DNA from: a virus
DNA length: 32,311 bases
IMG/VR virus record: IMGVR_UViG_3300042937_000217
Coordinates: 1 to 32,311 of that record
Reading direction: 5' to 3' (one strand)
Shown: positions 962 to 24,644 of the stretch, in pieces
How positions within the stretch are numbered: the stretch's first letter is position 1
Layout of the letters: the number at the start of each line of letters is the position of its first letter
Program-made: the position numbers and the translations under genes
Notes under the pieces: generated by a model
What the model was told of the DNA's origin: nothing
Seen by the model: the letters and a program-made list of their open reading frames with translations, nothing else
Databases searched by the model: none

Positions 962-1091
962 TGTACCAATTACTTTTATCGACCATTGCAATGTCAATGG
1001 AATTGATTTAAAAGCGTGGTACAAATGGAGGCTACACATAGCCAAAGAATCCAAAAAACTCTACCGAAAAAGGAATGAAATGGACAAATGA
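933..1091 (+). CDS. Small basic hypothetical protein (52 aa)
   Basis: An ATG at 933 inside the end of the VRR-NUC gene opens a 52-residue frame ending at 1089-1091, where ATGA couples it to the sigma-factor gene. The C-terminal half is rich in lysine, arginine and aromatics (WYKWR, then SKKLYRKR), so it may be a nucleic-acid-binding helix. I recognise no family. It fills an otherwise uncoded gap of about 125 bases, and the double overlap supports it. Confidence 0.6.
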   Translation: MKSTTTLQVNVPITFIDHCNVNGIDLKAWYKWRLHIAKESKKLYRKRNEMDK

Positions 1092-1684
1092 CCTTAACTC
1101 TGTTGGATATAGGAAAACGCCACAAGGAGTGGGTACGCATAGCAGTTTATGTTGGCTCACCTATATCCATCGCAGAGGACATGGTTCAAAATATGTATCT
1201 TAAGTTAGCAGAGATGGAGATACGAGAGGGTACATTGAATCGCATCCAAAACAATAATGGCTCAGTAAACACCGTATATGTTTTCAAGATACTCAGCAAC
1301 CTAGTAGTCGATGAAGTACGCAGAGGCTCTAAGGAGACGAGGTTAGACGATTCGATAGATATCCCTATCAATGACGAGATAGTTGACGACAAGGCTTACA
1401 ATGAACTAATAGAGGGCATAAAGATAGTAATTGATGACATGCACCAATATGACAAGATGCTTTTAGAGTTACATTTTGTATATGACATGAGCATGAGGGC
1501 TATTCAACGCAAAACAGATATACCAACACATTCAATATTTAACACACTAAAAAATGCAAAACAAAAAATCAAGCAGGAAACAAGTCAGAGATATCGTAAA
1601 TATGTCGACGACCGAAACGACAGAGAAACCAGTGATGGGATTGGGCGACATAATCCAGAAGGTAACGAAGGCGACTGGCATTGA
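1088..1684 (+). CDS. ECF-like RNA polymerase sigma factor
   Basis: The 198-residue protein has the two-domain plan of ECF (group 4) sigma factors. A region-2-like segment at about 10-85 contains the helix with AEDMVQNMYLKL (29-40) and a -10-recognition helix with VDEVRRGSKE (74-83). A region-4 helix-turn-helix lies at about 118-163 (LELHFVYDMSMRAIQ, then THSIFNTLKNAKQK). There is no room for region 3. It should direct host RNA polymerase to new promoters. Five late promoters here have an AAC -35 and CGT -10, the ECF signature, making this gene their likely reader. The tail of the frame overlaps the next gene by 83 bases. Divergence is high, so homology rests on layout and motifs. Confidence 0.8.
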   Translation: MTLTLLDIGKRHKEWVRIAVYVGSPISIAEDMVQNMYLKLAEMEIREGTLNRIQNNNGSVNTVYVFKILSNLVVDEVRRGSKETRLDDSIDIPINDEIVDDKAYNELIEGIKIVIDDMHQYDKMLLELHFVYDMSMRAIQRKTDIPTHSIFNTLKNAKQKIKQETSQRYRKYVDDRNDRETSDGIGRHNPEGNEGDWH

Positions 1685-1985
1685 AAAAGCAGTTAAATTC
1701 ATTGCAGGGGAAGATTGTGGATGCGATGCCAGACGAGAGAAACTCAACAAGTTGTTCCCGATTAAAAAACCATTATGTCTTACAGAGGACGAGTATAATT
1801 GGCTAACAACATTTCGTGAGGGGAAAACAGATACTTTGAGTAACGAGGAAAGCCGAACGCTAAGTGCCATTTACACAAGAATATTCCAGATAAGGAAAAC
1901 ATATAGCCCTTGCAAATGTGACCCAATGGCTTGGAATGATTTAATAGGAAACTTAAATGCTGTATATGACACCTATAAAAACTGA
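1602..1985 (+). CDS. Conserved phage protein with two CxC motifs
   Basis: I chose the ATG at 1602 (MSTTETTEKP) because the longer frame from 1554 has no better context; the gene then overlaps the sigma-factor gene by 83 bases. The 127-residue product has a GLGDIIQKVTKATGI segment at 13-27, then a C39-G-C41 motif followed by RREKLN, and a second pair C104-K-C106 near the end. Four cysteines in two CxC pairs suggest a metal site. The pattern resembles a hypothetical protein common in Bacteroidota phages; its function is not known to me. Confidence 0.75.
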   Translation: MSTTETTEKPVMGLGDIIQKVTKATGIEKAVKFIAGEDCGCDARREKLNKLFPIKKPLCLTEDEYNWLTTFREGKTDTLSNEESRTLSAIYTRIFQIRKTYSPCKCDPMAWNDLIGNLNAVYDTYKN

Positions 1986-2148
1986 GCCAGAATACCGAGG
2001 AGTATTGGCGATCCGTTTCCATGACCAGATATTCAGAATTTACAGAAACCAAAGAGTATTTGCGGAGTTCTACGATATCGAGGCTGGGAGAGAATACCTT
2101 AACAAAATAACCAATGGCAAAAGCGATAGTAATACCAGCACAGATTGA
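1957..2148 (+). CDS. Hypothetical protein (60-63 aa)
   Basis: Two ATGs in the same frame (1957 and 1966) overlap the end of the previous gene; neither has a distinguishing signal, so the product is 63 or 60 residues. It reads as a small beta-rich protein (RFHDQIFRIYRNQRVFAEFYD) followed by a lysine- and serine-rich tail. I recognise no family. It overlaps the next gene by 35 bases, in line with the compact operon. Confidence 0.6.
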   Translation: MLYMTPIKTEPEYRGVLAIRFHDQIFRIYRNQRVFAEFYDIEAGREYLNKITNGKSDSNTSTD

Positions 2149-2494
2149 AGGGATAAGCACGAGAGCAGATAGGACATTAAAGATAGTTCTGTCAACACAA
2201 GAGATGCCACCGAGCGATGCAGGGAGATTGTTCGCATTGAACCAGAAAATGTCCTACATAGCAATCAAGGAGGAATCATTCCAACAATCAGAGGTAGACA
2301 TGGTCGAAGGGCTTGCAGTCAACCCAGACGATACAAAGCAAAGAACTCCAAGTCAAAGGCTAAGAGCGATACTCTATGTAAGTTGGAAAGAGAGTGACGA
2401 AGGGCATCCATCGTTTGACTCGTTCTATGCTCAAAAGATTGAACGCATTATTACTCATTACAAAGACAAGTTAGATGCGTTGAAATTAGATTAG
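2114..2494 (+). CDS. Conserved phage hypothetical protein (126 aa)
   Basis: The 126-residue protein has a beta-rich N-terminal half (IVIPAQIEGISTRADRTLKI at 5-24) and a helical C-terminal half that includes TPSQRLRAILYVSW and ends in a lysine-rich helix. The arrangement resembles an uncharacterised protein family seen next to recombination genes in other Bacteroidota phages, but I cannot name a function. It closes the part of the operon that starts with the methyltransferase-like gene; a possible host-type promoter follows it. Confidence 0.7.
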   Translation: MAKAIVIPAQIEGISTRADRTLKIVLSTQEMPPSDAGRLFALNQKMSYIAIKEESFQQSEVDMVEGLAVNPDDTKQRTPSQRLRAILYVSWKESDEGHPSFDSFYAQKIERIITHYKDKLDALKLD

Positions 2495-2522
2495 GAAACC
2501 TCAACAATTATTTGTATATTTG
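2491..2522 (+). promoter_or_regulatory. Possible Bacteroidota-type promoter (weak -33)
   Basis: TATATTTG at 2515-2522 fits the Bacteroidota -7 consensus TAnnTTTG. Twenty bases upstream there is only TTAG (2491-2494) instead of TTTG. The start codon follows at 2527, the same tight spacing as at the better promoters before 28289 and 31138. Confidence 0.45.
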
Positions 2523-2526
2523 GAAA

Positions 2527-2835
2527 ATGGAAATCAGCGTAGAGCAACAACAAGACGAAGATAGAGCGAGGAAATTTATACAAAAACACTCGTGGAAATT
2601 CGCTAAAACAATGCCATGGGTACCTCATTTTTATGTTGTAAAATCGCTCATGAATCCAGAGGATAAACTAGAGTTTGATTGGTTTGTAACTGCATCTAGG
2701 AAATATGGCAAACTATTGAAATGGGGTAAAAAAGAGCCTAAGCCATATTGGTTTATCGATAACTATAAATATTGGACTATGATGGCACCAGTAGAGGAAA
2801 CAATCATTATCAATAGAGCGGAACACCATGTATAA
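2527..2835 (+). CDS. Hypothetical protein (102 aa)
   Basis: The ATG at 2527 (MEISVEQQQD) is preferred over the TTG at 2512, which lies inside a promoter-like TATATTTG. The 102-residue product is strikingly rich in tryptophan, tyrosine and lysine (HSWKFAKTMPWVPHFYVV, later PKPYWFIDNYKYWTMM). I recognise no family with certainty. Its end overlaps the glycosyltransferase-like gene by 8 bases, so it is co-expressed with the DNA-modification cluster. Confidence 0.75.
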   Translation: MEISVEQQQDEDRARKFIQKHSWKFAKTMPWVPHFYVVKSLMNPEDKLEFDWFVTASRKYGKLLKWGKKEPKPYWFIDNYKYWTMMAPVEETIIINRAEHHV

Positions 2836-6585: not shown

Positions 6586-6586
6586 G

Positions 6587-8098: not shown

Positions 8099-8129
8099 TT
8101 TGCAAATATGGGAAATATGTCTATCTTTG
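8099..8129 (+). promoter_or_regulatory. Bacteroidota-type promoter
   Basis: TTTG (8099-8102), 19 bases, then TATCTTTG (8122-8129) matches the -33/-7 consensus of the primary sigma factor in Bacteroidota. The gene at 8152 starts about 20 bases further on. Confidence 0.8.
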
Positions 8130-8728: not shown

Positions 8729-8760
8729 TTTGCATTTTTAGAAAATAGGAAATATCTTTG
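8729..8760 (+). promoter_or_regulatory. Bacteroidota-type promoter
   Basis: TTTG (8729-8732), 20 bases, then TATCTTTG (8753-8760), followed by ATAAACAAT as at the promoter before 27735. It serves the two small genes at 8784 and 9028. Confidence 0.8.
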
Positions 8761-9381: not shown

Positions 9382-9400
9382 GGCTGGGAAACCAGCCTTT
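9382..9400 (+). terminator. Rho-independent terminator
   Basis: A 6-bp GC-rich stem GGCTGG/CCAGCC with a GAAA tetraloop (9382-9397) is followed by TTT and then GTAATT. The T tract is short, so strength may be moderate. It separates the host-sigma unit from the first late promoter. Confidence 0.7.
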
Positions 9401-9406
9401 GTAATT

Positions 9407-9434
9407 CAAACATATTCAGTAAACATCGTTATAT
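9407..9434 (+). promoter_or_regulatory. Phage late promoter, copy 1 (ECF-type)
   Basis: CAAACA (9407-9412), 14 bases, then CGTTATAT (9427-9434). The ATG of the tail chaperone gene is at 9441, 14 bases after the C of CGT. The same element occurs at four other late unit starts with identical spacing. Confidence 0.85.
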
Positions 9435-9440: not shown

Positions 9441-10192
9441 ATGAAACAAATTCAAAAACTGGAAGATATTGGTTTACATCAATGGTTAGAACTGATGGAT
9501 TTTATTGATACAAATCCTAGTACAGAAGCATTGGCTATTCAGACCATTTCCATTATGTGCGAAATAAGTACAGAGAAGGTACGCAGATTAACGCTAGAAC
9601 AGATGGAGGATATCACCTCCAAGATAAACGAGATATTGTCACAGAAGCCAAAATATGAGCCTCGTTTTACATATCTCGGAGTTAAATATGGGTTCATTCC
9701 CAACCTTGACAAAATTACGGCTGGAGAATTTGTCGATTTAGAGACATTCCAAACGAGCAGGAAAAATCTGTGGAAGGTCATGAGCGTATTATATAGACCG
9801 ATTATCGAGGAACATCCGTACGAGCATTATCAAATAGAGCCATACAAAGGCTCGTTAAATGAAGCCTTTAAGGAGATGCCAGTTACGATTGCGTTGGGTG
9901 CACATCTTTTTTTTTGCGATATCGGGACAGAATTATTGAGTTATATCCAGAAATTTTTGGAACCAAAGAAGAACGAGAAAGCACCGAAAAAACGGAGGGA
10001 TGGGGGTTTGAAACGAGCCTTCAGTCATTTAATAACAAATGGGGATGGTCTGGATGGCTTATCGGTTTATGTAATGGAGACCCTCTCAAACTTGAGCCTA
10101 TATCGGAACTTACTTTACATCAAGCCCTTATCTTTACAAGTTATAAAATTGACTGGCAAAAAGTCCAAGAGAAAGCAATCAAACGAAAATGA
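9441..10192 (+). CDS. Tail assembly chaperone, -1 frameshift product
   Basis: The first 158 residues come from the zero frame, then a -1 slip on T TTT TTT (9908-9914) enters the frame from 9914 to 10192 for 92 more residues, total about 250. The extension (IIELYPEIFGTKEERE, later NKWGWSGWLIGLCNGD) is a familiar Bacteroidota phage tail protein. It contains no methionine, so it can hardly be translated on its own. The -1 frame is closed by TAA at 9869, so the slip must occur after that point; the T run is the only good slippery site seen. Confidence 0.7.
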
Positions 10193-10202
10193 ACATAACT
10201 AA
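9441..10202 (+). CDS. Tail assembly chaperone, zero-frame product
   Basis: The 253-residue zero-frame product starts at the first ATG after a late promoter. Residues 1-158 are the conserved part; the stretch ending in ALGAHLFFCDIGTELL looks like the Bacteroidota tail-chaperone family, analogous to lambda gpG. A run of nine T lies at 9907-9915, where a -1 slip yields a second product. The zero frame stays open for 290 bases more, but its last 90 residues look less protein-like than the -1 frame. The protein would bind the tape measure and recruit tail tube subunits. Confidence 0.7.
   Translation: MKQIQKLEDIGLHQWLELMDFIDTNPSTEALAIQTISIMCEISTEKVRRLTLEQMEDITSKINEILSQKPKYEPRFTYLGVKYGFIPNLDKITAGEFVDLETFQTSRKNLWKVMSVLYRPIIEEHPYEHYQIEPYKGSLNEAFKEMPVTIALGAHLFFCDIGTELLSYIQKFLEPKKNEKAPKKRRDGGLKRAFSHLITNGDGLDGLSVYVMETLSNLSLYRNLLYIKPLSLQVIKLTGKKSKRKQSNENEHN
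9907..9915 (+). other. Probable programmed -1 ribosomal frameshift site
   Basis: Nine consecutive T in the zero-frame phase C TTT TTT T, read as codons CTT TTT TTT TGC. Both the P- and A-site phenylalanine codons can re-pair perfectly after a -1 slip. No strong downstream stem was obvious by eye. Confidence 0.65.
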
Positions 10203-10683
10203 AAATCACATAGGAACTGGTAATTACTATTGGAAACAAGTAGCATCTAGGATGGATGCACAATATTCACATGGTGGCATGACCGAATACGATTTTAAAG
10301 CGATTACAGTTTTCCCTTTATTGCATATTACATTAACCAGAATCGATGTAGATACTAGTACGGCAAGGCTTACTTATTCAATTATGGTAGCCGACCAGAA
10401 TATTCATTACTCAAACGATTTTCAAGGAATGACGAATGCAGAATTATTCGAGGAGTACGGCTATACCGAAAATGCGAACTACGCCTTTGTGTTGCAGGAA
10501 ATCTATATCCGTCTAGTAAAACAGATGGAGTACATGGAACAAGCATTGTACAACACTTTGCAGATTGAAAAGCCGTACACACTAACTCCGTTTGCGGAGG
10601 ATTTGGATGCGGTTCTTACTGGGTATACTGGGGAAATTACATTGATAATCCTTAACCCAATAGTAACTGATGGCTGGTGTTAA
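10189..10683 (+). CDS. Conserved phage structural protein, putative tail or connector component
   Basis: The 164-residue protein has an alternating strand pattern (FPLLHITLTRIDVDTSTARLT) followed by helices that include LQEIYIRLVKQMEYMEQAL and a short beta C-terminus. It overlaps the end of both chaperone frames and the next gene. The position between tail chaperone and an HK97 gp10-like protein is that of head-closure or tail-terminator proteins in Bacteroidota phages, which is the likely role. The sequence alone gives no decisive motif. Confidence 0.65.
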   Translation: MNITKNHIGTGNYYWKQVASRMDAQYSHGGMTEYDFKAITVFPLLHITLTRIDVDTSTARLTYSIMVADQNIHYSNDFQGMTNAELFEEYGYTENANYAFVLQEIYIRLVKQMEYMEQALYNTLQIEKPYTLTPFAEDLDAVLTGYTGEITLIILNPIVTDGWC

Positions 10684-11227
10684 TCTACCCAAGACAGACG
10701 CTCAACTAGAGCGTATTGCAATCGCTTTTAAGGAGGCGTTGCAGAGTGCAATGAGGCGAAAGCGGAAGCGTACATCTTTGCGTGTTAAATGGGCTAAAAC
10801 TCAGACGGGATGGAAACCTAAGAAAGTAACAAAAGGATCGTATACTAGCAACATGGTTGCATCTGGATATCTATTGAACAATACAAAAGTTGTTTCAAAA
10901 GGTCCATTGGATTACTCGGTTTCAATGCCATCATACGCAAAGTTCCTAATCGAAGGGCGTAAAAAGGGGAAAGGGATTCCAGTACGCAACATGGATAGTT
11001 GGATTAAGCAAAAACGGATTAAGCCAAAAAATGAAAAAGGACAATTTAAAAAAATGGACAAGCGTACTTTGGGGTTTTTGATGAATAGGAAAATCAAGTA
11101 TTTTGGCATCGAGGGGTACGATTTTGTAGCACCAGAACGCAAGGACATTTTACGCAGATACAATAGTGCTTTAAGCAAGGCAATGAATCAAGATTTACAG
11201 AACATAATTACTAAGGGATTACGATAA
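10670..11227 (+). CDS. HK97 gp10-like head-tail/tail completion protein
   Basis: The 185-residue protein is very basic, with an RKRKRTSLRVKW stretch near residue 30, a central MPSYAKFLIEGRKKGKGIPV and a C-terminal helix (NSALSKAMNQDL). The pattern of an N-terminal helix, a YAKFLIEGR-type core and basic linkers is that of HK97 gp10-like tail completion proteins. The stop overlaps the next start (TAATG). The family match is by pattern, so moderate. Confidence 0.65.
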   Translation: MAGVNLPKTDAQLERIAIAFKEALQSAMRRKRKRTSLRVKWAKTQTGWKPKKVTKGSYTSNMVASGYLLNNTKVVSKGPLDYSVSMPSYAKFLIEGRKKGKGIPVRNMDSWIKQKRIKPKNEKGQFKKMDKRTLGFLMNRKIKYFGIEGYDFVAPERKDILRRYNSALSKAMNQDLQNIITKGLR

Positions 11228-12354
11228 TGGCAATAACATATACTCAGCAACCGAGTGGAAAACTAGGGGCAAATAGCCCTTTGATTTATCAAGTTAACGA
11301 TGCCTCGCAAAAAGCAACGGCAGGATTTTACTATAAATTCGAGGTGTTCGTATGGACTGGTTCTACAACAATTCCAGTTACCCCTATCGCAACGCTAACT
11401 AAGTTACCAGATGCCTATGCAGATGGAAGGGCGTATATGGATATCAGCCGATTAGTTACGCAATATGTCAAAACGAATTATTTAGTATTTGGGGCGTTAA
11501 CTCCTTTGATTGATTTAGGGGCGTATTGGGTACAAATAAAAGTATCTGGATTCAATACGGCTGGAGGTACTACTCCAGTAAGCGTAGCAGTAAATAGCAA
11601 TCGCATCCTCGCTACAAGGGGATATTCGTTTACTAAGGATGGAATCAATAGTGCCTTTGCACAGAATGTCTATACGGATAGAACTCAAATTTTGCTTACC
11701 CCAGATACGACAATCGATTACCTATGGTACAATCAGAGCGGAGTTTCTAGCGTAACTATTGGGGCTACGACAATTACTCCAACGGCTGGAACGCTAAGCA
11801 CTCAGCAGATTCAAGGCTTTGAAATTAAAACGGCATTGACAACAGCAGGGTTATGGGGAACTAATTGCAACATCATTTTTAATCTATCTGGAGGCGGAAC
11901 TCAAACTATACCAGTCATATTCGATTGTGCTACTCGATACGGAGCGTATTCAGTTTTATTCCTTAATCGATTTGGAGTTTATGAGGGCATGACATTTAAT
12001 GGAGTTTATCAGCCATCGTGGGCAGTCAATAGGGAGGACTATCAAACCGCATTGTTTACCAATTCAGATTTGACATCGGCATGGGCGGTAGGCATGAGGC
12101 AAACCAGACAATTCAATATCCAGAGCAAAGAGAACATGGTCATCAGCACCAACTGGATTCCAGAAAGTTATGTAACCTATATGGGGCAACTTATGATGAG
12201 TGAGGCGATAACTTTTGCTTATGATGGAATCTATTACGGAGTAAATTGCACCGATATGAATATGGAGCGTAAGCGAGTAACCAATGCCAAACTGATTCAG
12301 TATACTTTAAATCTTGAATATTCTCAGCCCTATATTAACAAGATTGTACGATGA
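11227..12354 (+). CDS. Tail structural protein, putative distal tail component
   Basis: The 375-residue protein is almost all beta strands with many T, S, G and N residues (AITYTQQPSGKLGANSPLIY at the start), the composition of secreted or virion beta-sandwich proteins. It lies between tail completion genes and the 914-residue tail-tip gene, with a TAATG start and a 4-base overlap at the end. The position in the tail-tip block suggests a distal tail or baseplate-associated protein. There is no catalytic motif. Specific role inferred from position. Confidence 0.65.
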   Translation: MAITYTQQPSGKLGANSPLIYQVNDASQKATAGFYYKFEVFVWTGSTTIPVTPIATLTKLPDAYADGRAYMDISRLVTQYVKTNYLVFGALTPLIDLGAYWVQIKVSGFNTAGGTTPVSVAVNSNRILATRGYSFTKDGINSAFAQNVYTDRTQILLTPDTTIDYLWYNQSGVSSVTIGATTITPTAGTLSTQQIQGFEIKTALTTAGLWGTNCNIIFNLSGGGTQTIPVIFDCATRYGAYSVLFLNRFGVYEGMTFNGVYQPSWAVNREDYQTALFTNSDLTSAWAVGMRQTRQFNIQSKENMVISTNWIPESYVTYMGQLMMSEAITFAYDGIYYGVNCTDMNMERKRVTNAKLIQYTLNLEYSQPYINKIVR

Positions 12355-15095: not shown

Positions 15096-15253
15096 TGTAT
15101 ACTAGCATAATCAAACTTTTAAAAGCCAACGAATACTACGGCGTATCGTTTAATATAGAGAGGGCAAAAGGTCACCATGAAATCCCATCTGGATTCAAGG
15201 ATTTTGTTAAACAATTTAAACGCATAATCAATGGCAAACGATATAAACTTTAA
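15095..15253 (+). CDS. Small basic hypothetical protein (52 aa)
   Basis: A TAATG overlap with the tail-tip gene opens a 52-residue frame (MYTSIIKLLKANEYYGV...), ending 23 bases inside the tape measure gene. It is basic, with a lysine/arginine-rich C-terminus (FVKQFKRIINGKRYKL). I recognise no family. Both overlaps and the otherwise empty 135 bases support it as a gene. Confidence 0.6.
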   Translation: MYTSIIKLLKANEYYGVSFNIERAKGHHEIPSGFKDFVKQFKRIINGKRYKL

Positions 15254-17090
15254 GGTAGACGCTGATACCAGTAAAGCCACGAAAGGGGCGGAACAATTAG
15301 CCCAAGCACTTGGCAAGGCAGGTAAACAAGCGGAGAATACAAATCAATCTCTTAAAGAGAGTGGAAATGCAGGAAGTAGATTTAGCAAGGTATTAGGTGG
15401 ATTAAAATTCGGTGCAGGACTGGCAGTAGGCAAGGGATTACTAGATAAGGTTATGGGTTCTTTAATCGAGAACGAAAAAGTAGCCAATTTATTCAATGAT
15501 GCCTTATCTGTTATTACTGGTACCGCAACTGGCTTAGTAGAGATTTTAGAACCAGGCTTTAAAGCGATTGGTGATGCCATCAAAAACCCCAAAAAAGCAT
15601 GGGATGATTTGGTTTCTGCGTTTGAACGAGGGGCAAAATGGATTAAAGAGAACCTCATTGACGGAGTAATTGGCTTATTTTCTGAACAGATAAATAATCT
15701 GGAGATTGGGATTTTAAAACTGCGTAAAGGCTGGAACGAATGGACTGGAGATACAGAGGAAGCAGTAATAATGCAGGAACGCATTAATGAGTTGCAAAAG
15801 GAAAATATCGAGATACAAAAAGAGCAATCAAAACGCTTTACAAATATCAAAGAGGTAGCAACTGGGGCAGTTTCAACTCTTACCTCATGGGGGAAAACGA
15901 TCGCCAAAAACATAAAAAGCACAGTCGAAGGGAATCAAGCCTTACGAGATTCTACCAATGCGTACATTACTCAAAATGCAGTCATCGAGGAAAACATTAA
16001 ATCCCTTGAACGCCAACAAGCACAGAACGAGGCGAACGCCAATAATGAAACGCTTACGTTTGAGGAACGCAGGAAATCAATCGAGGCAAACATTGAATTA
16101 AAAAAACAACAGATTGAACAAGAGAAGCAGTTAATCCAGAACCAGATTAATTTACTTGCACTCGAAAACCAAGCAAAAGGCGTATCAGCAGAAAGGAGTG
16201 CACAGATTGGGGCGTTGAATGTCCAGATGAAAGGGTTAGATGCGACTATTAGCGAAACTCAGATTACGGTTGATGAAACCTTGCGCACTATTGCAGAGCA
16301 GGAAAAAGAAACGACCAAAGCAGTTACTGATGCGTTACTAGAAAAAAATCGAGCAGAAGCCGAAGCCTTTGCACAGACAACTGGGTTAGAACACGAGAAA
16401 CTCAAGATGCAACTTGATGTTATCGAGGCACAGAAAAAAGCCTTTATGCAGTCCTACGATGAGCGATTGTCTAAGGAAAAGGAGGGAACATCCAAGTACA
16501 ACGAGATATTGGCTGAGCGTATCGCTAAAGAGGGCGAGTTCAATGCACAGCGTATTCAAGGCGAAGCCGAATATACTACGGCAATCAAGGAGTACAAGAA
16601 AACTCAGCAACAGATGGAATTGGATGCCATGAATGTCAAAGCACAAGCCATATCACAAGGGCTGACATTGGCGAGGACATTAATCAAGGAGGACTCCAAA
16701 ATGCAGAGTGCGATTAACATTGCTGAGGCTATTATGCAAACCTATGTAGGGGCGAACGTAGCATTGGCAAGTAGCCCACCGCCATTGAATTACATTAACA
16801 TGGCTGGGGTTATCGCTGGAGGATTAGCGAATGTTATCAAAATCCAACAAGAGGCTCGTAAATTGGCAAGTGAAACTGGAGGCTCAGCACCAAGTGGGGG
16901 TTCATTGACCGCTCCATCGATAGGACCGAATATCTCAGTTGCACGAAGCAATGTAGATAGTAATATGCAGTTAGGCAATGCCATGAAACAAGCAGGGAAA
17001 CCCCCTAGAGCGTATGTCGTTTCTGGAGATATTAACTCCGCTGAGTCACTAGATAGGAAGATTTATCAAAATGCAACACTAGGCGGTTAA
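15231..17090 (+). CDS. Tape measure protein
   Basis: The 619-residue protein starts with the KVDADTSKATKGAEQLAQAL pattern common to tape measures, has a hydrophobic glycine-rich segment at about 55-75 (FGAGLAVGKGLL), long coiled coils at about 250-315 rich in E, Q and K, and a C-terminal hydrophobic region near 515-540 (NMAGVIAGGLANVI) before a serine/glycine-rich tail. It sets tail length by spanning the tube; at about 1.5 angstroms per residue this gives a tail near 90 nm, consistent with a siphovirus. It ends the first late unit; late promoter 2 overlaps its last codons. Confidence 0.85.
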   Translation: MANDINFKVDADTSKATKGAEQLAQALGKAGKQAENTNQSLKESGNAGSRFSKVLGGLKFGAGLAVGKGLLDKVMGSLIENEKVANLFNDALSVITGTATGLVEILEPGFKAIGDAIKNPKKAWDDLVSAFERGAKWIKENLIDGVIGLFSEQINNLEIGILKLRKGWNEWTGDTEEAVIMQERINELQKENIEIQKEQSKRFTNIKEVATGAVSTLTSWGKTIAKNIKSTVEGNQALRDSTNAYITQNAVIEENIKSLERQQAQNEANANNETLTFEERRKSIEANIELKKQQIEQEKQLIQNQINLLALENQAKGVSAERSAQIGALNVQMKGLDATISETQITVDETLRTIAEQEKETTKAVTDALLEKNRAEAEAFAQTTGLEHEKLKMQLDVIEAQKKAFMQSYDERLSKEKEGTSKYNEILAERIAKEGEFNAQRIQGEAEYTTAIKEYKKTQQQMELDAMNVKAQAISQGLTLARTLIKEDSKMQSAINIAEAIMQTYVGANVALASSPPPLNYINMAGVIAGGLANVIKIQQEARKLASETGGSAPSGGSLTAPSIGPNISVARSNVDSNMQLGNAMKQAGKPPRAYVVSGDINSAESLDRKIYQNATLGG

Positions 17091-17100
17091 TCCGTTATAT
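17073..17100 (+). promoter_or_regulatory. Phage late promoter, copy 2 (ECF-type)
   Basis: GCAACA (17073-17078), 14 bases, then CGTTATAT (17093-17100); the ATG follows at 17107. The -35 part lies inside the tape measure coding sequence, six codons from its end. Confidence 0.85.
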
Positions 17101-17106: not shown

Positions 17107-17481
17107 ATGTCTATGAAAAATACATCGTACCATAAATTTATGTCGTCTACTGCAAAAAATCCAGTAAAGATTGACTTGGCTACTATCGACCAAAACCTTA
17201 AGCAATTAAATTCTGAAATTGATAAGGCATTTTCGGTTTTAGACAAAGGCACTAAAGATATACGTCAATTTTTGTCCGTAGCCAAAACACTCAAAATCGA
17301 TTCGGCTACAATAAATGAATTGTCAAAACAAAGAGAAACCTTAAAATCTTTAGGGGCACCCCCAAACGCTAACATTGATTTTACTATTGAAAATGCGGAG
17401 ATTGTCGAAGATGTAGTTAACCAAGTTAATAAATCTTTGACCGCTTATTTGAGTTCTATTCAAGGATATGACGTAGGATGA
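17107..17481 (+). CDS. Hypothetical helical virion-module protein (124 aa)
   Basis: The 124-residue product is predicted mostly helical, with a coiled-coil-like stretch (LKQLNSEIDKAFSVLDKG) and no membrane segment. It is the first gene after late promoter 2 and overlaps the XkdF-type protease gene by 4 bases (ATGA). I recognise no family. Position suggests a capsid-assembly or minor virion protein. A second in-frame ATG at 17113 gives nearly the same product; promoter spacing favours 17107. Confidence 0.7.
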   Translation: MSMKNTSYHKFMSSTAKNPVKIDLATIDQNLKQLNSEIDKAFSVLDKGTKDIRQFLSVAKTLKIDSATINELSKQRETLKSLGAPPNANIDFTIENAEIVEDVVNQVNKSLTAYLSSIQGYDVG

Positions 17482-18065
17482 GAATTGTAGAACTCATATT
17501 GGATGAGGACCAATTAGCACATGGTATTGATGCAATTTCGATTGTATCGGCACCAGCGATTGAGTCCAATTTTATTGCCTTAAAAAAGCACAATGTCAAG
17601 TTCGCAACTCTGGATGAAGACAAGCGTATTTTGATGGGACCAGCATTGATTCCAGACAAGCCGATTTATCGCAACCAAGATGGCGAGGAGTTCTATTGTT
17701 ATTTCAGCCAGAATACAGTCCGCAGGGCATCGGAACTCTATTTAACTAGAGGGAATCAAAACAATGCGACTCTAGAGCATGAGTTCAATATTCATGGATT
17801 GAGCCTTGTCGAAACATGGATTAAAGAGGATATGGTCAATGACAAGAGTGCCTTATATGGATTGAACGATCCAGTCGGAACTTGGATGGTTACGATGAAA
17901 GTAGCCAATGACCAAATCTGGAATGAATATGTTAAAACTGGGCTTGTAAAAGGCTTTTCAATAGAGGGGTTTTTTGCAGAAAATTCTAGCGTAAAAGCCA
18001 GTAAACTAGCAGTCCATCCAGAACTTGACGAATACATTAAAAGTTTGGGCTACACAAAAATCTAA
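17478..18065 (+). CDS. XkdF-type prohead maturation protease
   Basis: The 195-residue protein matches the XkdF family: VSAPAIESNFI near 23-33, MGPALIPDKPIYR (53-65), EEFYCYFSQNTV, the conserved H101 in LEHEFNIHG, VETWIKEDMVNDKS, and GFSIEGFF at 159-166 with S161 as probable nucleophile. These proteins cleave scaffold and capsid precursors in prohead maturation. It lies directly before the scaffold-like and capsid genes, as expected. Late promoter 3 overlaps its stop codon. Confidence 0.85.
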   Translation: MRIVELILDEDQLAHGIDAISIVSAPAIESNFIALKKHNVKFATLDEDKRILMGPALIPDKPIYRNQDGEEFYCYFSQNTVRRASELYLTRGNQNNATLEHEFNIHGLSLVETWIKEDMVNDKSALYGLNDPVGTWMVTMKVANDQIWNEYVKTGLVKGFSIEGFFAENSSVKASKLAVHPELDEYIKSLGYTKI

Positions 18066-18089
18066 CAACTCAAAATTAATCCGTTATAT
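18062..18089 (+). promoter_or_regulatory. Phage late promoter, copy 3 (ECF-type)
   Basis: CTAACA (18062-18067) overlaps the TAA stop of the protease gene; 14 bases later CGTTATAT (18082-18089), and the ATG is at 18094. It drives the scaffold-like and major capsid genes, ending at the terminator at 19867. Confidence 0.85.
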
Positions 18090-18093: not shown

Positions 18094-18897
18094 ATGTCAA
18101 ACGAAGCACAAAATATCTTAGACCGCGTATTAGGTGGATTAGGATATAAAAAATCAGTTGCCATTCAAATGTCTCAAAAAAAGACAGCAGATGGGGAAAC
18201 CATATTCGATTCAGAAAATTTCGCTATCGGTGATTCAGTATTTATTGTAACTGCCGATGGTAACATTCCAGTTCCATCTGGAGATTACGAATTGGAAGAT
18301 GGTTCAGTTGTAAGTGTTGACGAATCTGGTATTATCTCAGCCATTGGAACTAAAACTCCCGAGAGTGCTGAAATGGAAAGTTCTCCAGTTGTCGAGCAAC
18401 CCGCACCAATGACACCAAAAACAATTATCGAATCTATGACTAAAGAAACACAATTTGCAGAAACTCCAGTAATGGACAATCCTGCAATAGAGGAAAAAAT
18501 TGAAGAACAAACTATGGGTAAACCAGCCTTGTTAGTAAAATGCGAGGATATGGTTGGACCAGAAAATGCTCCACTAGCAGAAAAAATTGCTGAGGCTATT
18601 GTTAGCATTGTTGACAATGGAGATGCAGAGGAGTTAATCAGCGAATACAAAAAAGCAAAAAACAAAACTAAGATGAGTGCACATTCACCTGAAATCGCAG
18701 AAACATTGCGTGCCTTTGAATTGAAACTTAATGCGTTATCACAAGAAAATGAGGCTTTAAAAGAGGCTTTGTCTACTGAAGGGAATCGTACTTTTTTCAA
18801 CCCAGAGCAAAATAGCAAAACTAAAATCAACTTTAAAATCGGTGCGCAACGTGAGGAAACAATCACAGACCGAGTATTTAGTCAATTATTCTCTTAA
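18094..18897 (+). CDS. Putative scaffolding protein
   Basis: I chose the ATG at 18094 (MSNEAQNIL) because late promoter 3 lies just before it; the longer frame from 18025 runs back through the promoter. The 267-residue product is acidic, with a beta-rich module at about 40-85 (GDSVFIVTADGNIPVPSGDY), a proline/glutamate-rich linker, and a C-terminal coiled coil (FELKLNALSQENEALKEAL) followed by a basic tail (NSKTKINFKIG). A coiled coil plus basic tail directly before the capsid gene is the classic scaffold layout. Likely cleaved by the XkdF-type protease. Confidence 0.7.
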   Translation: MSNEAQNILDRVLGGLGYKKSVAIQMSQKKTADGETIFDSENFAIGDSVFIVTADGNIPVPSGDYELEDGSVVSVDESGIISAIGTKTPESAEMESSPVVEQPAPMTPKTIIESMTKETQFAETPVMDNPAIEEKIEEQTMGKPALLVKCEDMVGPENAPLAEKIAEAIVSIVDNGDAEELISEYKKAKNKTKMSAHSPEIAETLRAFELKLNALSQENEALKEALSTEGNRTFFNPEQNSKTKINFKIGAQREETITDRVFSQLFS

Positions 18898-18908
18898 AAA
18901 CCACAACC

Positions 18909-19844
18909 ATGAAAAATAGAAAACTTCACCTCTCTGGTCCTACGCTGTCTACTAACACCTATGCTGGTGAATTTAGTGGAAAGTATATCGCTGCGGCACT
19001 TTTGTCGGGCGAAACTTTGGCGAAGGAATTGATTACAATTCACCCTAATGTTAAATTCAAGGAAGTTATCCGTAACTACGCATCAAGCGTAAGCATCGAT
19101 AATGCTACTTGTGATTTTACCGATTCAAGTTCAGTAACATTGACAGAATATGTTATGACCATGACTGAAAAACAAGTAAACTTAACTTTGTGTAAGAAAA
19201 ACTTGTTTAACACATGGGAAACAATGCAAATGGGATTCTCTGCGTTTGAGAATTTACCCGCTACTTTCGAGGAATTTGTATTGGCACAAACCTCAGCCCA
19301 AGTTGCTCAGCAGAACGAATTGGGTATTTGGAAATCTAACCTTTGGTATGATTCAGCGATCGTCGCTGGTCAAGATGGAATGATTGGGTATCTCGTAGAT
19401 AACTCCGCTATCGTTCGCTCATTCTCTGGTGCTACAAGCAGTTCTAACGTAGTTGCTCGTTTTCAAGAGGCGTTAGACAATTCACCTAGTGCATTGTATG
19501 GAAAAGAGGGCTACCAATTCTATGTTGGACCTTTGACCATGAAAGCGTATCAAGGTGCGTTATCTGCGGGTAACTATAACTTCCAGTTCTATGTTGGAGA
19601 AAAGCCAATGAACTTCCAAGGTATTCCAGTTGTTATGTGTCCTGGTCTTAACGATTCAGATTGCGTATTGGGATTGAAATCTGATTTGCACTTTGGTACT
19701 GGCTTGGTTTCTGATTACAACGAAGTAAAATTGATTGATATGGCTGACATTGACGGAAGTCAGAATGTTCGTATTATCATGCGTTTTACTGGCGGTATTC
19801 TTGCAACTAACCCAACTCAGCAAGTTGTAATTAACGTAACCTAA
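18909..19844 (+). CDS. Major capsid protein (HK97-fold type)
   Basis: The 311-residue protein follows the scaffold-like gene after 11 bases and is followed by a strong terminator, as befits the most abundant product. The N-terminus (LSGPTLSTNTYAGEFSGKYI) leads into a long helix region, then beta strands of the A- and P-domains (YQFYVGPLTMKAYQG, later MNFQGIPVVMCPGL), and a C-terminal strand typical of HK97-like capsids. The length is within the usual range for a processed capsid. Assignment relies on context and pattern. Confidence 0.85.
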   Translation: MKNRKLHLSGPTLSTNTYAGEFSGKYIAAALLSGETLAKELITIHPNVKFKEVIRNYASSVSIDNATCDFTDSSSVTLTEYVMTMTEKQVNLTLCKKNLFNTWETMQMGFSAFENLPATFEEFVLAQTSAQVAQQNELGIWKSNLWYDSAIVAGQDGMIGYLVDNSAIVRSFSGATSSSNVVARFQEALDNSPSALYGKEGYQFYVGPLTMKAYQGALSAGNYNFQFYVGEKPMNFQGIPVVMCPGLNDSDCVLGLKSDLHFGTGLVSDYNEVKLIDMADIDGSQNVRIIMRFTGGILATNPTQQVVINVT

Positions 19845-19866
19845 TCGGTTACTGAGAAAAAATATA

Positions 19867-19891
19867 GGGCTGGGTAATCCAGCCCTTTTTT
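19867..19891 (+). terminator. Rho-independent terminator after capsid gene
   Basis: A 7-bp stem GGGCTGG/CCAGCCC with a GTAAT loop (19867-19885) is followed by six T (19886-19891). It is well formed and close behind the capsid stop. Confidence 0.9.
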
Positions 19892-19919
19892 AAAATGTCA
19901 AAATAAAAAATATAAAACT

Positions 19920-20486
19920 ATGCCATGTAATACAATCGATGCCCGTCTTGAACCCTGCAAAGAGTATGTAGGCGGTATACAAGGGATTTTCTTAATTCCG
20001 TTTGTTTGGAGTGACGTTATCGAACTACAAACAGTTGGTCAAGTAGGGACAGTAAAAACAATCAAAACTTCTGGAGCCGTATTAGTTACTGGTTATTTTT
20101 GGGAATTGAAAGGATCGTCATCTTTTGACGTTGCCATGACTTCTAGCAGGGATAATGGAACTACTATGTACGACCAGAATTTGACTGTTGTTTTCAAACC
20201 TAAATCTTTGACTACTCCCATCTATGATTTTAACGATTACAACACATTGGCTAAAGGCAGATGGCGTATCGTTGTTTGGGACAGAAACGATAACTTCTGG
20301 TTGGTAGGCGAGGAATATGGTGCAGATGCGACTACTGGAGTTGAAAACTTTGGTACTGCATTGGGCGACCCTCGTAACTATTCAGTTACTTTCGTTGCTA
20401 GTGAATCAAACCCTCCAAGACCATTGGACTCTACAACCTATGCTGGTTTGAGTACAATCTTTACTCCAGATTCAACACCTGCGTAA
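19920..20486 (+). CDS. Probable major tail tube protein
   Basis: The 188-residue, beta-rich protein has an N-terminal RLEPCKEYVGGIQGIFLIPF stretch, a core KGRWRIVVWDRNDNFWLVGE and a C-terminal LGDPRNYSVTFVASESNPPR. The 'GD-x-YSVTF-x-ES-PP' ending is typical of major tail proteins in Bacteroidota siphoviruses. It lies between two strong terminators with no late-promoter element in the 75 bases upstream, so it must be read by read-through of the first terminator or from an unrecognised promoter. Confidence 0.7.
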   Translation: MPCNTIDARLEPCKEYVGGIQGIFLIPFVWSDVIELQTVGQVGTVKTIKTSGAVLVTGYFWELKGSSSFDVAMTSSRDNGTTMYDQNLTVVFKPKSLTTPIYDFNDYNTLAKGRWRIVVWDRNDNFWLVGEEYGADATTGVENFGTALGDPRNYSVTFVASESNPPRPLDSTTYAGLSTIFTPDSTPA

Positions 20487-20510
20487 TTGATATTTGATTT
20501 AGATTTAGGA

Positions 20511-20538: not shown

Positions 20539-20566
20539 CTAACAAAATCAGTATATTTCGTTATAT
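20539..20566 (+). promoter_or_regulatory. Phage late promoter, copy 4 (ECF-type)
   Basis: CTAACA (20539-20544), 14 bases, then CGTTATAT (20559-20566); ATG at 20572. It abuts the terminator directly, so the incoming transcript ends exactly where the new unit begins. Confidence 0.85.
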
Positions 20567-20571
20567 TGTAT

Positions 20572-20919
20572 ATGTACATCAAGCCGACTGATACGACAAT
20601 TTTTATTTACCCCTTAATTCCCTTTCCAGCAGGGAACATAACATTGGTCGTTGTACATAAATTGACCAAGATTCAAGTATCGCTTACTCAAGCGTATTCC
20701 AGCACAAACTCTGGAGTTCAATTAACTTTGCCGAATATGACTGCTATCAGCGATGTTTCAAATAATCTGGATGAATTGGTTGTGCGTTGCTTTGATGGAA
20801 CTAATACATTGTTTTACGAGATGGTAAATAGATGGGTTACAAACTCGCCTAATATCCTGCTCAATCGCAAAACATGGACTGCTACAAATAACAATACAAA
20901 AGAATGGTTAACACTATAA
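20572..20919 (+). CDS. Hypothetical structural-module protein (115 aa)
   Basis: The start is the ATG at 20572; the TTG at 20566 overlaps the promoter -10 box and is unlikely. The 115-residue product is beta-rich (PFPAGNITLVVVHKLTKIQV, then GVQLTLPNMTAI) and may be an immunoglobulin-like domain. It overlaps the portal gene by 16 bases and leads the fourth late unit. I recognise no family; a small capsid decoration or tail-associated protein is possible. Confidence 0.7.
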   Translation: MYIKPTDTTIFIYPLIPFPAGNITLVVVHKLTKIQVSLTQAYSSTNSGVQLTLPNMTAISDVSNNLDELVVRCFDGTNTLFYEMVNRWVTNSPNILLNRKTWTATNNNTKEWLTL

Positions 20920-23165
20920 GCAATAGCAAAATTCGAGTACTGAATTTAAGTACCTATACTACGCCTAGCATCATTGAACGCAAGAACAAGTTATGGGTAG
21001 AATATGGAGACGATAACGATTACTACGGATATCTGATTGATATGTTTCATGGTAGCCCTACTAATAATCGTTGCGTTAAAGGAATAGCCGATTTAATCTA
21101 TGGTCAAGGCATCGATGCAAAGCGTAGCAATAGAAACTTAGGTGCTTATGTTGAATTACGCAAATTGTTTGACGAAAAATGCTTACGCAATGTAGTCATG
21201 GATTTGAAATTGTTAGGACAAGCATGTTTCCAGATTGTCAAAACAAAAGACAAAAAGAAAATCGCTAAGGTTTATCATTTTCCCATCCAAACAATCAGAC
21301 CAGAAAAATGCAATGACAAAGGCGAGATTGATGCGTATTATTATTTTCATGATTGGACACAATTAAAAAGAGGTCAAGAACCAAAACGCATCCCAAACTT
21401 TGAGTTCAATCCAGAAGCACCAGAAAGCCTATTGGTTATTCGCCCTTATTCGACTGGTACATTTTATTTTAGTCCAGTTGACTATCAAGGAGGGTTACAA
21501 TATGCGGAACTCGAAACCGAAATTGCCAATTACCATATTAACAATATCAAAAATGGCTTAGCACCATCCATGTTGATTAACTTCAATAATGGTGAGCCAC
21601 CAGAGGAAACGAAGTTATCAATCGAAGGGGCTATCATGAGCAAATGGTCGGGTAGCAGTAACGCTGGTAGGGCGATTATCTCGTGGAACGATTCAGCAGA
21701 TACCAAAGCCGATATAACTGCGGTGCCTTTAAGCGATGCTCATAACCAATATCAGTTTATGTCGAGCGAATCGCAGGACAAAGTTTTGGTGGCTCATGGA
21801 ATTACAAGCCCATTGATTTTTGGTATTAAAAATACAGCTAATGGATTCTCGTCTAACGCTGAGGAATTGAAAACGAGCATCGTGTTGTTTGACAACATGG
21901 TTATTCGACCATTTCAGAATATGATTTGTGAGGCAATGAACATGATTCTGAGTTACCAAGAGGTCAATCTTGAACTTTACTTTAAGCCATTGAATCCTTT
22001 GCAGGGAGATGAGTTAATGTCTACTAACGAAGATAAGGATTTTGCGTTTAAATTTTCAGACCAAAGAGGAGTTGACATGAACGATTCTAGTTTTGAACTA
22101 GAGGAAACATATAATGATTATCCAGATAGTGCAGTCAATAATGCAAAACGAGCAGTTAAATATGCGGAGGAAAATGGTTGGGGCGATTGTGGGACTGGCG
22201 TTGGGAAAGCACGAGCCCATCAATTAGCAAACCGAGAAAATATCAGCCGAGATACTATTGCTCGTATGGCATCATTTCGTAGGCATCAGCAAAACAAGGA
22301 TGTTCCGTATACTGAGGGATGCGGAGGATTAATGTGGGATGCGTGGGGTGGCGAATCTGGAATTGCGTGGGCAGAACGCAAACTAGAACAAATCGATAAA
22401 AAGGATTTATCATTAGCAGTTGACAATCCTTGTTGGGATGGTTACGAAATGGTAGGATTTAAAACTAAGAACGGAGTTAAAGTTCCTAATTGCGTACCTA
22501 TTGAACAAGCAAAAATCAATCGTAAATCGATGGCTATGTCTGATAATGACGAAAACGATTGGTTGTTACACCTTGCTGATAAGGGCGAAAAAATTGACGA
22601 GAGCGAATGGGAACTCGTAGACATATCGCCAGTAGAAAATACTGATGACGAAGCCGATATCCATTCTAACAAATTTGAGTTCTTTAAACGCTTTGCAGAG
22701 CCAAACGCTAAGAGTACAGATGACAAGGGTATTTTTAAGATTCGTTATCGTTATGGACCAGACAAATATTCTAGCAATAGCAGGATTTTCTGTAAGGACA
22801 TGGTTGCCAATCGCAACTTGAATGTAGTGTATCGCAGGGAGGACATTTTAACTATGGGTGACGAAGGCATCAATGGACAATTTGCACCAGCAGGAAAATC
22901 ATCGTACTCAATCTGGAAATTTAAGGGAGGGGTTAATTGCCACCATTACTGGGAACGATTGACTTTTAAACGCAAACAGACGGCAGGGAAATTTTTGCCC
23001 TTGCAACCTAACGAAATTGGTACCGATGAACGAGATTTAGAAAATTATCGCAAAGTTCCGAATCTGGAGGCTACTGCATCGGGAGTTCCCTTTAGCCCAC
23101 CAGCATGGAGTAAAGCCAAAACAAGACCTATTGATATGCCTAATAACGGAGGATTAAAAAAATGA
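20904..23165 (+). CDS. Portal protein with a C-terminal multi-module extension
   Basis: The first ~390 of 753 residues are a portal: LWVEYGDDNDYYGYL early, the LKLLGQACFQIV region, and SSESQDKVLVAHGITSPLIFGI with the stem-type helix after it. The remainder holds three further modules. Residues ~395-500 contain GVGKARAHQLANRENIS, an RMASFRRHQ segment and CGGLMWDAWGG, a module also found on other phage head proteins. About 506-525 reads NPCWDGYEMVGFKTKNG. Residues ~610-753 contain FKIRYRYGP and SRIFCKDM, ending PIDMPNNGGLKK. Portals of this kind are usually much shorter; the added modules have no function known to me. Ends with an ATGA overlap. Confidence 0.8.
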   Translation: MVNTISNSKIRVLNLSTYTTPSIIERKNKLWVEYGDDNDYYGYLIDMFHGSPTNNRCVKGIADLIYGQGIDAKRSNRNLGAYVELRKLFDEKCLRNVVMDLKLLGQACFQIVKTKDKKKIAKVYHFPIQTIRPEKCNDKGEIDAYYYFHDWTQLKRGQEPKRIPNFEFNPEAPESLLVIRPYSTGTFYFSPVDYQGGLQYAELETEIANYHINNIKNGLAPSMLINFNNGEPPEETKLSIEGAIMSKWSGSSNAGRAIISWNDSADTKADITAVPLSDAHNQYQFMSSESQDKVLVAHGITSPLIFGIKNTANGFSSNAEELKTSIVLFDNMVIRPFQNMICEAMNMILSYQEVNLELYFKPLNPLQGDELMSTNEDKDFAFKFSDQRGVDMNDSSFELEETYNDYPDSAVNNAKRAVKYAEENGWGDCGTGVGKARAHQLANRENISRDTIARMASFRRHQQNKDVPYTEGCGGLMWDAWGGESGIAWAERKLEQIDKKDLSLAVDNPCWDGYEMVGFKTKNGVKVPNCVPIEQAKINRKSMAMSDNDENDWLLHLADKGEKIDESEWELVDISPVENTDDEADIHSNKFEFFKRFAEPNAKSTDDKGIFKIRYRYGPDKYSSNSRIFCKDMVANRNLNVVYRREDILTMGDEGINGQFAPAGKSSYSIWKFKGGVNCHHYWERLTFKRKQTAGKFLPLQPNEIGTDERDLENYRKVPNLEATASGVPFSPPAWSKAKTRPIDMPNNGGLKK

Positions 23166-23674
23166 CACCAAATGACATTGTACTGCTAGTAACGACAGAC
23201 GATATTTTTAAATATACATCGTTGAATGGAAATGTCGATGTTGACAAGATTACTCCATTTATTAAGGTGGCTCAAGATATAGAAGTACAAGAGGTTCTCG
23301 GAACAGTCCTATATCAGAAAATCCTTACCGATGTTCGTACTACTGGATTATCTGGTAATTATTCTACATTGGTATCACAATATGTTCAGCCGATGCTTAT
23401 CCATTATGCCATGAGTGATTTTTTGCAGTTTCATGGCTACGAAATAAGCAACGCAGGGATATTAAGGAATAGCCCAGAGAACTCTCAGTTACCAGAAAAA
23501 AGCGAAATCGATACTATCGTTAGCAGACAAAGAGCCATCGCTGAAACCTATCGTCATCGCTTGATTTCGTACTTGACTTATTATCCTCAGTATTTCCCAG
23601 AATATACGGCAAACCAGAATGATGGGGAATACCCAACTACTAACCCAAATAACTATTGTGGATGGAACCTATAA
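23162..23674 (+). CDS. Head-tail connector protein (DUF6712-like adaptor)
   Basis: The 170-residue protein is mainly helical: TPFIKVAQDIEVQEVLGTVL near the start, then QYVQPMLIHYAMSDFLQF and RQRAIAETYRHRLISYLTYY. This helical bundle following the portal is typical of gp6/gp15-like head-tail adaptors that attach beneath the portal ring. It overlaps the portal gene at ATGA. The function is well supported by position and pattern but not by a catalytic motif, since none is expected. Confidence 0.75.
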   Translation: MTPNDIVLLVTTDDIFKYTSLNGNVDVDKITPFIKVAQDIEVQEVLGTVLYQKILTDVRTTGLSGNYSTLVSQYVQPMLIHYAMSDFLQFHGYEISNAGILRNSPENSQLPEKSEIDTIVSRQRAIAETYRHRLISYLTYYPQYFPEYTANQNDGEYPTTNPNNYCGWNL

Positions 23675-23799
23675 AAGTACCTTACAAGCCCAAAGAGGAA
23701 AAATTCAATAAACTCAAATCGTATTATACTAAACTAAAAAAAAATGAAAGCAAAACTGATAAAAAACATTCAAGTTACTTATTTGGTAAATCACAATGA
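23662..23799 (+). CDS. Small lysine-rich protein (45 aa), possible
   Basis: An ATG at 23662 inside the connector's last codons opens a 45-residue frame with many lysines (VPYKPKEEKFNKLKSYYTK). It overlaps the next gene by 56 bases, more than neighbouring genes do, so one of the two starts may be wrong. It covers an otherwise empty 70-base gap. I recognise no family. Confidence 0.45.
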   Translation: MEPIKVPYKPKEEKFNKLKSYYTKLKKNESKTDKKHSSYLFGKSQ

Positions 23800-24055
23800 G
23801 CGTAATCAATTTCATTTTTGGATTGACGAAGATGCAGTAGAATCTCTAGTACATAGTTGGGTTTCTGATATACCCGAAAAAGATAGCGATTCTGTTTACA
23901 TAGGAATTAATCTTAGTGACCATAATTCTGAAGCACAAAAGGAGGCTCTGTCGCTTATTTTAAAGCGATTTGAGGGTATCGAGGTTATTTTCCCTATGGA
24001 GATATCAAAAGAACAAAAGAAAGCCACTAAATCGCCTAAAAAAGAGGCACAATGA
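23744..24055 (+). CDS. Hypothetical protein (103 aa)
   Basis: The 103-residue product has an N-terminal beta-rich part (IKNIQVTYLVNHNERNQFHF), a middle helix (EAQKEALSLILKRFEGIEV) and a lysine-rich tail (KEQKKATKSPKKEAQ). I recognise no family. It overlaps the u-spanin gene by 4 bases. Position between connector and lysis genes fits a minor virion or assembly protein, without direct evidence. Confidence 0.65.
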   Translation: MKAKLIKNIQVTYLVNHNERNQFHFWIDEDAVESLVHSWVSDIPEKDSDSVYIGINLSDHNSEAQKEALSLILKRFEGIEVIFPMEISKEQKKATKSPKKEAQ

Positions 24056-24468
24056 GAAGTGCAATTTTTATATTGGCGATCGTACTTAGCGGATGTTCGG
24101 CACAATGGCATATTAAAAGAGCCATCGCCAAAGACCCAAGTATATTGACAGAGAAAATTGTAACTATATTAGACACTATTATTGTTAAAGAGGGATTCCA
24201 AAGAATTGATACCTTTGTAACTAAAGAAGTCGATACACTCTTAATCCATGAAAAGGGTGTAAATACGCAGATAATTCGATTTAAAGATAGGCTAATCGTT
24301 AAAACGGAGGTCAAAAATGACACAATTCGCATCATAAAGGCAATTAAGGATTATCAGTTAATTTACAAGGAAAAGCCAAAATCCAACAAATCATTTTGGA
24401 TAGCGTTTATTATTGGCGTAGCAACTGCAATTATGTTTGTAATTGGACTTAAACAATTATTAAAATGA
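24052..24468 (+). CDS. Probable unimolecular spanin (u-spanin)
   Basis: The 138-residue protein has a lipoprotein signal (MRSAIFILAIVLSGC) with lipobox cysteine C15, a periplasm-sized middle of about 100 mostly charged residues, and a C-terminal transmembrane helix at 115-133 (FWIAFIIGVATAIMFV). An outer-membrane lipid anchor plus an inner-membrane helix in one chain is the defining plan of u-spanins, which fuse the two membranes at the end of lysis. The class is usually called from this topology because sequence is poorly conserved. It precedes, but is not adjacent to, the holin-amidase block 2 kb later. Confidence 0.75.
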   Translation: MRSAIFILAIVLSGCSAQWHIKRAIAKDPSILTEKIVTILDTIIVKEGFQRIDTFVTKEVDTLLIHEKGVNTQIIRFKDRLIVKTEVKNDTIRIIKAIKDYQLIYKEKPKSNKSFWIAFIIGVATAIMFVIGLKQLLK

Positions 24469-24620
24469 CTGGCATAGATAGAAAATTTACCAACCCATCT
24501 CGCTCAAGCCCAAAATCGAATGGCAGGGCTTGTCTATGTAAAGACAAAAACAAATATTCCAAAAAATGTTGCGATGGAACATTGTGGGCACAAGGCATTG
24601 GTAACATCACACAACCCTAA
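24465..24620 (+). CDS. Cysteine-containing small phage protein (51 aa)
   Basis: Starting on an ATGA overlap with the u-spanin gene, the 51-residue frame has C-L-C-K-D at about 23-27, then CCDGTLWAQGIGNI near the end. The same CLCKD/CCDG pattern recurs in small proteins of other Bacteroidota phages. The four cysteines could be a disulfide or metal pair. Its stop codon overlaps the -35 of late promoter 5. Confidence 0.65.
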   Translation: MTGIDRKFTNPSRSSPKSNGRACLCKDKNKYSKKCCDGTLWAQGIGNITQP

Positions 24621-24644
24621 CAAATTTACATAAAATCGTTATAT
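24617..24644 (+). promoter_or_regulatory. Phage late promoter, copy 5 (ECF-type)
   Basis: CTAACA (24617-24622) overlaps the stop of the preceding gene; 14 bases later CGTTATAT (24637-24644), with the ATG at 24649. It opens the fibre and lysis unit that runs to 27650. Confidence 0.85.

Follow-up and report, generated by a model that had tools for sequence, protein, structure and literature searches.

The recruitment of host RNA polymerase by a phage-encoded sigma factor to its own middle/late promoters has been shown experimentally for gp47 of phage 7-11 and gp36 of phage phiEco32, with transcription starts 6-9 bp away from the promoter element; additional sigma/promoter pairs are predicted by the 7-11 authors (PMC8948821). 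The present analysis concerns a 32,311-nucleotide stretch of viral DNA (IMG/VR record IMGVR_UViG_3300042937_000217, positions 1 to 32,311; hereafter the window), which encodes a predicted extracytoplasmic function (ECF)-like sigma factor at 1088-1684 and carries five copies of a bipartite, promoter-like element, each directly before a unit of late genes. Together with a second, host-type class of promoters before non-structural genes, these components very probably constitute a late transcriptional switch.

The window system resembles that of 7-11 (SaPh711_gp47) in that the phage sigma factor has region 4, repeats of a bipartite promoter precede the late genes, and the early genes are assigned to host sigma. 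Nevertheless, the 7-11 late promoter (GTAAtg-(16)-aCTA) is unlike that of the window in sequence, and 7-11 differs in its enterobacterial host and podovirus morphology, with no start-codon lock reported (PMC8948821). In phiEco32, gp36 similarly brings the core enzyme of the host to middle and late genes, but this phage has single-element promoters (tAATGTAtA), a gp36 devoid of recognisable region 4 and, additionally, a host-transcription inhibitor (gp79). An earlier note on this DNA considered a phage ECF regulon of this type to be undescribed; in kind, it is preceded by phiEco32 gp36 and 7-11 gp47 (PMC8948821). The phage strategy itself is known and the version described here is widespread. 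In the open-access literature no account of a Bacteroidetes-phage sigma regulon was found, and within that literature the occurrence of this sigma family in Bacteroidetes phages, the sequence of its promoters and their lock to the start codon appear unreported.

Late-type elements in the window and its relatives

The five elements have the form AACA-N14-CGTTATAT, and two of them follow terminator-like hairpins:

9409..9434, plus strand: putative late promoter P1 (AACATATTCAGTAAACATCGTTATAT), 6 nucleotides before ATG 9441; kept before the orthologues in relatives G005, G006, G012 and G016
17075..17100, plus strand: putative late promoter P2, sharing bases with the 3' end of the tape-measure-like gene and lying 6 nucleotides before ATG 17107
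18064..18089, plus strand: putative late promoter P3, overlapping the protease-gene stop, 4 nucleotides before ATG 18094
20541..20566, plus strand: putative late promoter P4, directly 3' of an intrinsic-terminator-like hairpin, 5 nucleotides before ATG 20572
24619..24644, plus strand: putative late promoter P5, 4 nucleotides before ATG 24649
9382..9397, plus strand: terminator-like hairpin just upstream of P1
20507..20534, plus strand: terminator-like hairpin plus T run, ending shortly before P4

Exactly five copies are present in the window, all on the plus strand, against an expectation of 0.01 from dinucleotide shuffles (none of which held five copies); the elements are thus real and not as frequent at random. 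No further copy of CGTTATAT exists in the window, and allowing up to two mismatches adds a single match, which lies within the early region on the minus strand (151-176). The earlier description of the elements as identical is true of the core only, since AACA, CGTTATAT and an A at offset 14 are invariant but the five spacers differ; the sites exist as described, but their AACA blocks start two bases further on than had been given (9409, 17075, 18064, 20541 and 24619). From the end of each element it is 4-6 bases to an ATG (9441, 17107, 18094, 20572 or 24649), and every one of these opens a late unit, with orthologue alignments beginning at or near the same codon. The motif precedes no non-structural gene in the window, in agreement with the confinement to late units proposed earlier. 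Further, a matrix built from other phage subclades only placed exactly these five sites on top (ranks 1-5, 17.2-26.4 bits), with the next-best site at 10.6 bits, more than 6 bits lower.

The nearly fixed distance to the ATG, in bacteria devoid of Shine-Dalgarno signals (PMC6847099), might also be expected of an RNA-level signal for translation start instead of a promoter. Such a signal is extremely improbable, given that the element stands at the heads of late units only and is absent from internal late genes, that two sites come after terminator-like hairpins, and that an AACA block 15 bases upstream, separated by a free spacer, suits recognition at the DNA level.

Comparison with sigma-bearing relatives extends the observation from one genome to a family. 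Across 22 phages, 76 elements were found at gaps of 15-17 (counted from AACA to GTT), all 76 on the strand of the sigma gene and 46 of them with exactly 8 nucleotides from GTT to ATG. A window homologue exists for 58 of the downstream proteins; 56 of these match late genes and the other two are homologues of the small gene g1554 (described below) that head the packaging operon of the Nonlabens phages P12024S and P12024L. When AACA-gap-GTT followed by an ATG-started open reading frame was counted in 20 sigma-bearing contigs, gap 15 formed a peak of 40 sites, other gaps giving 2-13; the opposite strand had no gap-15 site, and unrelated control patterns showed no comparable peak. De novo dyad discovery gave too much noise when run over every ATG; limited to gene starts, it returned AACA-gap-GTTAT/CGTTA/GTTTT types on top in the window, G005, G016, G022 and P12024S, exceeding the shuffled maxima.

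At orthologous sites the core is retained while the spacers and the flanks of the -10 drift. The family core, in which the AAC block was fixed by the design of the search, reads AACA-N15-GTT[A/T]TAT, mostly with ATG 8 bases after GTT, and the -35 block in the family consensus is TAACA. ECF promoters typically combine an AAC -35 with a CGT -10 at a distance of 16-17. The reading of CGT as an invariant ECF -10, made in the earlier note, was rejected on comparison with relatives, the base before GTT being C in the window but variable (C, G or A) across the family. Elements of P12024S/L have the form AACA-N16/17-GTTAATAT, about 8 bases before the late-gene ATG, with a gap that is mostly 17 and hence two bases longer at most sites. 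In the subclade of G027, G030, G031 and G032, both elements found read GTTA[C/T]TTATATATG through the start codon, the sequence being fixed up to the ATG.

A complementary scan by motif alone, covering 2.9 million viral contigs, led back to the same group: of the 120 stretches picked, 27 have window genes, and the sigma gene is present in nine of these 27 as against none of 40 other motif-picked contigs. Those with window genes and no sigma gene are mostly short fragments, and one of 83 kb shares a single window gene. Flavobacteria possess several ECF sigma factors, one of which might read the late promoters in place of the phage protein. This is very unlikely, since the C of CGT varies in the phage family, the flavour of the -10 tracks the phage lineage, and each of the four clearly syntenic contigs above 27 kb that had been chosen by motif alone has the phage sigma gene. 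Strict motif patterns run against bacterial genomes gave no relatives, and with them no trace of a prophage or host origin.

The predicted sigma factor and its family

The gene and its conserved neighbour are as follows:

1088..1684, plus strand: predicted ECF-like sigma factor of 198 amino acids (AlphaFold2, Foldseek, phrog_1740 and Pfam matches of relatives)
1554..1985, plus strand: conserved small protein g1554, overlapping the sigma 3' end in a different frame; candidate partner

The two-domain sigma factor proposed earlier agrees with both the predicted fold and the Pfam matches of relatives. The product has sigma2 (~5-81), a disordered linker (82-98), sigma4 (~100-165) and a divergent tail, within the size and domain content of ECF factors (sigma2 and sigma4 only, ~160-200 amino acids). 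An AlphaFold2 model from a 33-sequence alignment, which left out the P12024S protein, has a predicted local distance difference test score of 80, with each helical domain near 90. Foldseek gave 17 matches against the PDB with E <=0.001, every one an ECF sigma factor. The C-terminal domain superposes on sigmaE region 4 bound to -35 DNA (2h27) with a template-modelling (TM) score of 0.84 by target length and a root-mean-square deviation of 1.1; over the full length, TM-scores are low, because the two domains have no fixed position relative to each other. The predicted fold is that of an ECF sigma factor. At the sequence level, the protein matches phrog_1740 (RNA polymerase sigma factor) at 8e-7, whereas the alignment profile matched no sigma factor among PDB sequences, the relation being visible by fold comparison only. 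Among relatives, P0004 (56% identity) clears the Sigma70_r4_2 cut-off with 27.7 bits, and P12024S gp33 and the L195 protein clear that of Sigma70_r2 (25.2 and 25.8 bits against 24); no single member passes both. On these domain-wise fold matches and Pfam matches of relatives, the protein is taken to be an ECF-like sigma factor.

A Q-like antiterminator with merely a sigma4-like helix-turn-helix would account for a Phage_antitermQ match that stays under threshold (16.4 bits; cut-off 26) and a Q-like match to phrog_79. It is a very improbable identity for a protein whose fold matches over its whole length are ECF sigma factors, whose relatives pass the Sigma70_r2 cut-off and whose family conserves a sigma2-like helix (VQxMYxK) in the N-terminal half; moreover, Q has no need of a new bipartite promoter before each unit. 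The predicted sigma factor shares with bacterial ECF factors (sigmaE, SigW, SigH, SigK) the sigma2-linker-sigma4 fold and an AAC-type -35, but differs from them in its ~15% identity, the lack of an identified anti-sigma gene and a GTTATAT-like -10 with a variable base before GTT. No match to an anti-sigma factor was seen, and the conserved neighbour g1554 has no Pfam match.

An alignment-based scan found at least 310 viral contigs encoding a relative of the sigma factor; most are metagenome fragments, and the complete or near-complete ones are syntenic with the window. A tblastn search of cultured phages with the window sigma gave no match, and the cultured members, Nonlabens phages P12024S and P12024L (Inhavirus; gp33/gp35) of a Flavobacteriaceae host, were reached via the portal protein. 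They share with the window the AACA-gap-GTT type of element and the gene order VRR-NUC, sigma, g1554 homologue, terminase, with the sigma factor annotated merely as a hypothetical protein with sigma-70 region 2. The source virus likewise appears to infect Bacteroidetes bacteria. In all 32 sigma-bearing contigs compared, a g1554 homologue lies within ~0.5 kb downstream of sigma.

Apart from this, the g1554 protein has a GEDCGCD motif; the overlap of its called start with the sigma 3' end is a feature of the window lineage, and in P12024S/L its homologue has a late-type promoter of its own. The sigma-homologue match contains an in-frame TAA at G059:9964-10392 and at G060:17020-17451.

Host-type promoters and the proposed late switch

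A separate promoter class precedes the non-structural genes. By its sequence, TTTG-N19/20-TATCTTTG is a Bacteroidetes sigmaA-type promoter, and its five copies in the window (0.07 expected) all stand before such genes:

8099..8129, plus strand: host sigmaA-type promoter, consensus match TTTG-N19-TATCTTTG
8729..8760, plus strand: host sigmaA-type promoter, consensus match TTTG-N20-TATCTTTG
27697..27727, plus strand: host sigmaA-type promoter, consensus match TTTG-N19-TATCTTTG
28255..28285, plus strand: host sigmaA-type promoter, consensus match TTTG-N19-TATCTTTG
31100..31130, plus strand: host sigmaA-type promoter whose unit continues into the sigma gene in relative G005

The first two lie between the terminase gene and P1 and precede small genes of unknown kind that start at 8152 and 8784. 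In G005, which is unbroken here, a host-type promoter at 22620 is followed ~2.2 kb downstream by the sigma gene (24792) on the same strand, a layout that fits host-driven early expression of sigma and accords with the earlier proposal that it is made from a host-type promoter unit. Both promoter classes, their partition between gene groups and their conservation throughout the family are established by sequence comparison. Since activators serve late genes in other phages, primary sigmaA aided by a phage activator might use the late sites, leaving the sigma-like protein with another role. This is very unlikely, as the late sites do not resemble the host TTTG/TAnnTTTG pattern, which is found separately before non-structural genes, and a bipartite motif of fixed spacing suits a sigma2-sigma4 reader.

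The features of a phage late sigma/promoter system, namely a phage-encoded sigma, a shared motif before late genes only and early promoters of host-sigma type, are found together in these sequences, and the pairing of sigma factor and late promoters is strongly supported by comparison. In the proposed late switch, host sigmaA holoenzyme would first transcribe the replication and other non-structural genes from the TTTG-N19/20-TATCTTTG promoters, including the operon that holds the sigma gene. The phage sigma would then bring the core RNA polymerase of the host to the five late promoters, where sigma4 would recognise TAACA and sigma2 (C)GTTATAT, the two blocks being a constant 15 bases apart in GTT numbering; the head, tail and lysis units would thereby be switched on. 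As the -10 is only 8-10 bases from the start codon (GTT to ATG), the late mRNAs would be leaderless or nearly so; applying the start geometry of 7-11 and phiEco32, their first base would fall on the ATG or within about six bases of it. A wholly leaderless late programme would be unusual, since leaderless mRNAs make up only 5.5% of those mapped in F. psychrophilum (PMC9723704). The dedicated late switch of the earlier note is favoured by the sigma fold and the late-only promoters, and we infer the binding of sigma to the promoters, the start positions and the timing.

Certain points weigh against the proposed switch. It rests on comparative evidence throughout, and sigma and motif are inherited together, so that their co-occurrence is no independent proof of recognition. 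The Sigma70_r4_2 match of the window protein itself (16.6 bits) is under the cut-off of 25.7, in addition to its weak antiterminator match. Phages without an annotated sigma gene favour the pairing in having zero gap-15 sites, but this control comparison covers three Bacteroidetes phages only; further, no clear motif of this form was seen in G033-G036, which have distant sigmas, or in the partial contig G009.

Late units and implications for Bacteroidetes phages

The units opened by the five elements are:

9441..17090, plus strand: late unit 1, unknown proteins and a tape-measure-like protein at 15231
17107..18065, plus strand: late unit 2, including a prohead-protease-like Peptidase_S78_2 (50.2 bits against a cut-off of 24)
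18094..20486, plus strand: late unit 3, conserved head-region proteins of families without names
20572..24468, plus strand: late unit 4, portal protein at 20904 and a weak spanin-like match at 24052
24649..27650, plus strand: late unit 5, tail-fibre-like protein and an N-acetylmuramoyl-L-alanine amidase at 27012

Elsewhere, 2828-6585 may be a DNA-modification cluster, with a glucosyltransferase-like protein (phrog_854), a DNA methyltransferase-like protein, a PAPS-reductase/DUF3440 protein and two ParB-like proteins; the comparable region of P12024L encodes an HMC-glucosyltransferase and a 2OGFeDO oxygenase. The gene order spanning the two ends of the window is unbroken in G005 (L144/L145), which suggests that the window is a nearly complete genome in circularly permuted form.

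Taken together, it is probable that a large lineage of Bacteroidetes phages has its own ECF-like sigma factor, a -10 locked to the start codon and a wholly leaderless late programme, with promoter sequence and gap having diverged by subclade along with the sigma. If true, this would show how transcription is programmed in a broad phage group that is mostly uncultured and whose gene regulation is little studied, and late genes would be recognisable from sequence alone. The system is of the kind foreseen by the 7-11 authors (PMC8948821), and its many natural sigma/promoter pairs, varied in -10 sequence and gap length, would aid the study of how sigma specificity evolves. Furthermore, start-codon-locked promoters would allow leaderless translation to be tested in hosts that lack Shine-Dalgarno signals, and the presence of a cultured phage in the group makes the system testable.

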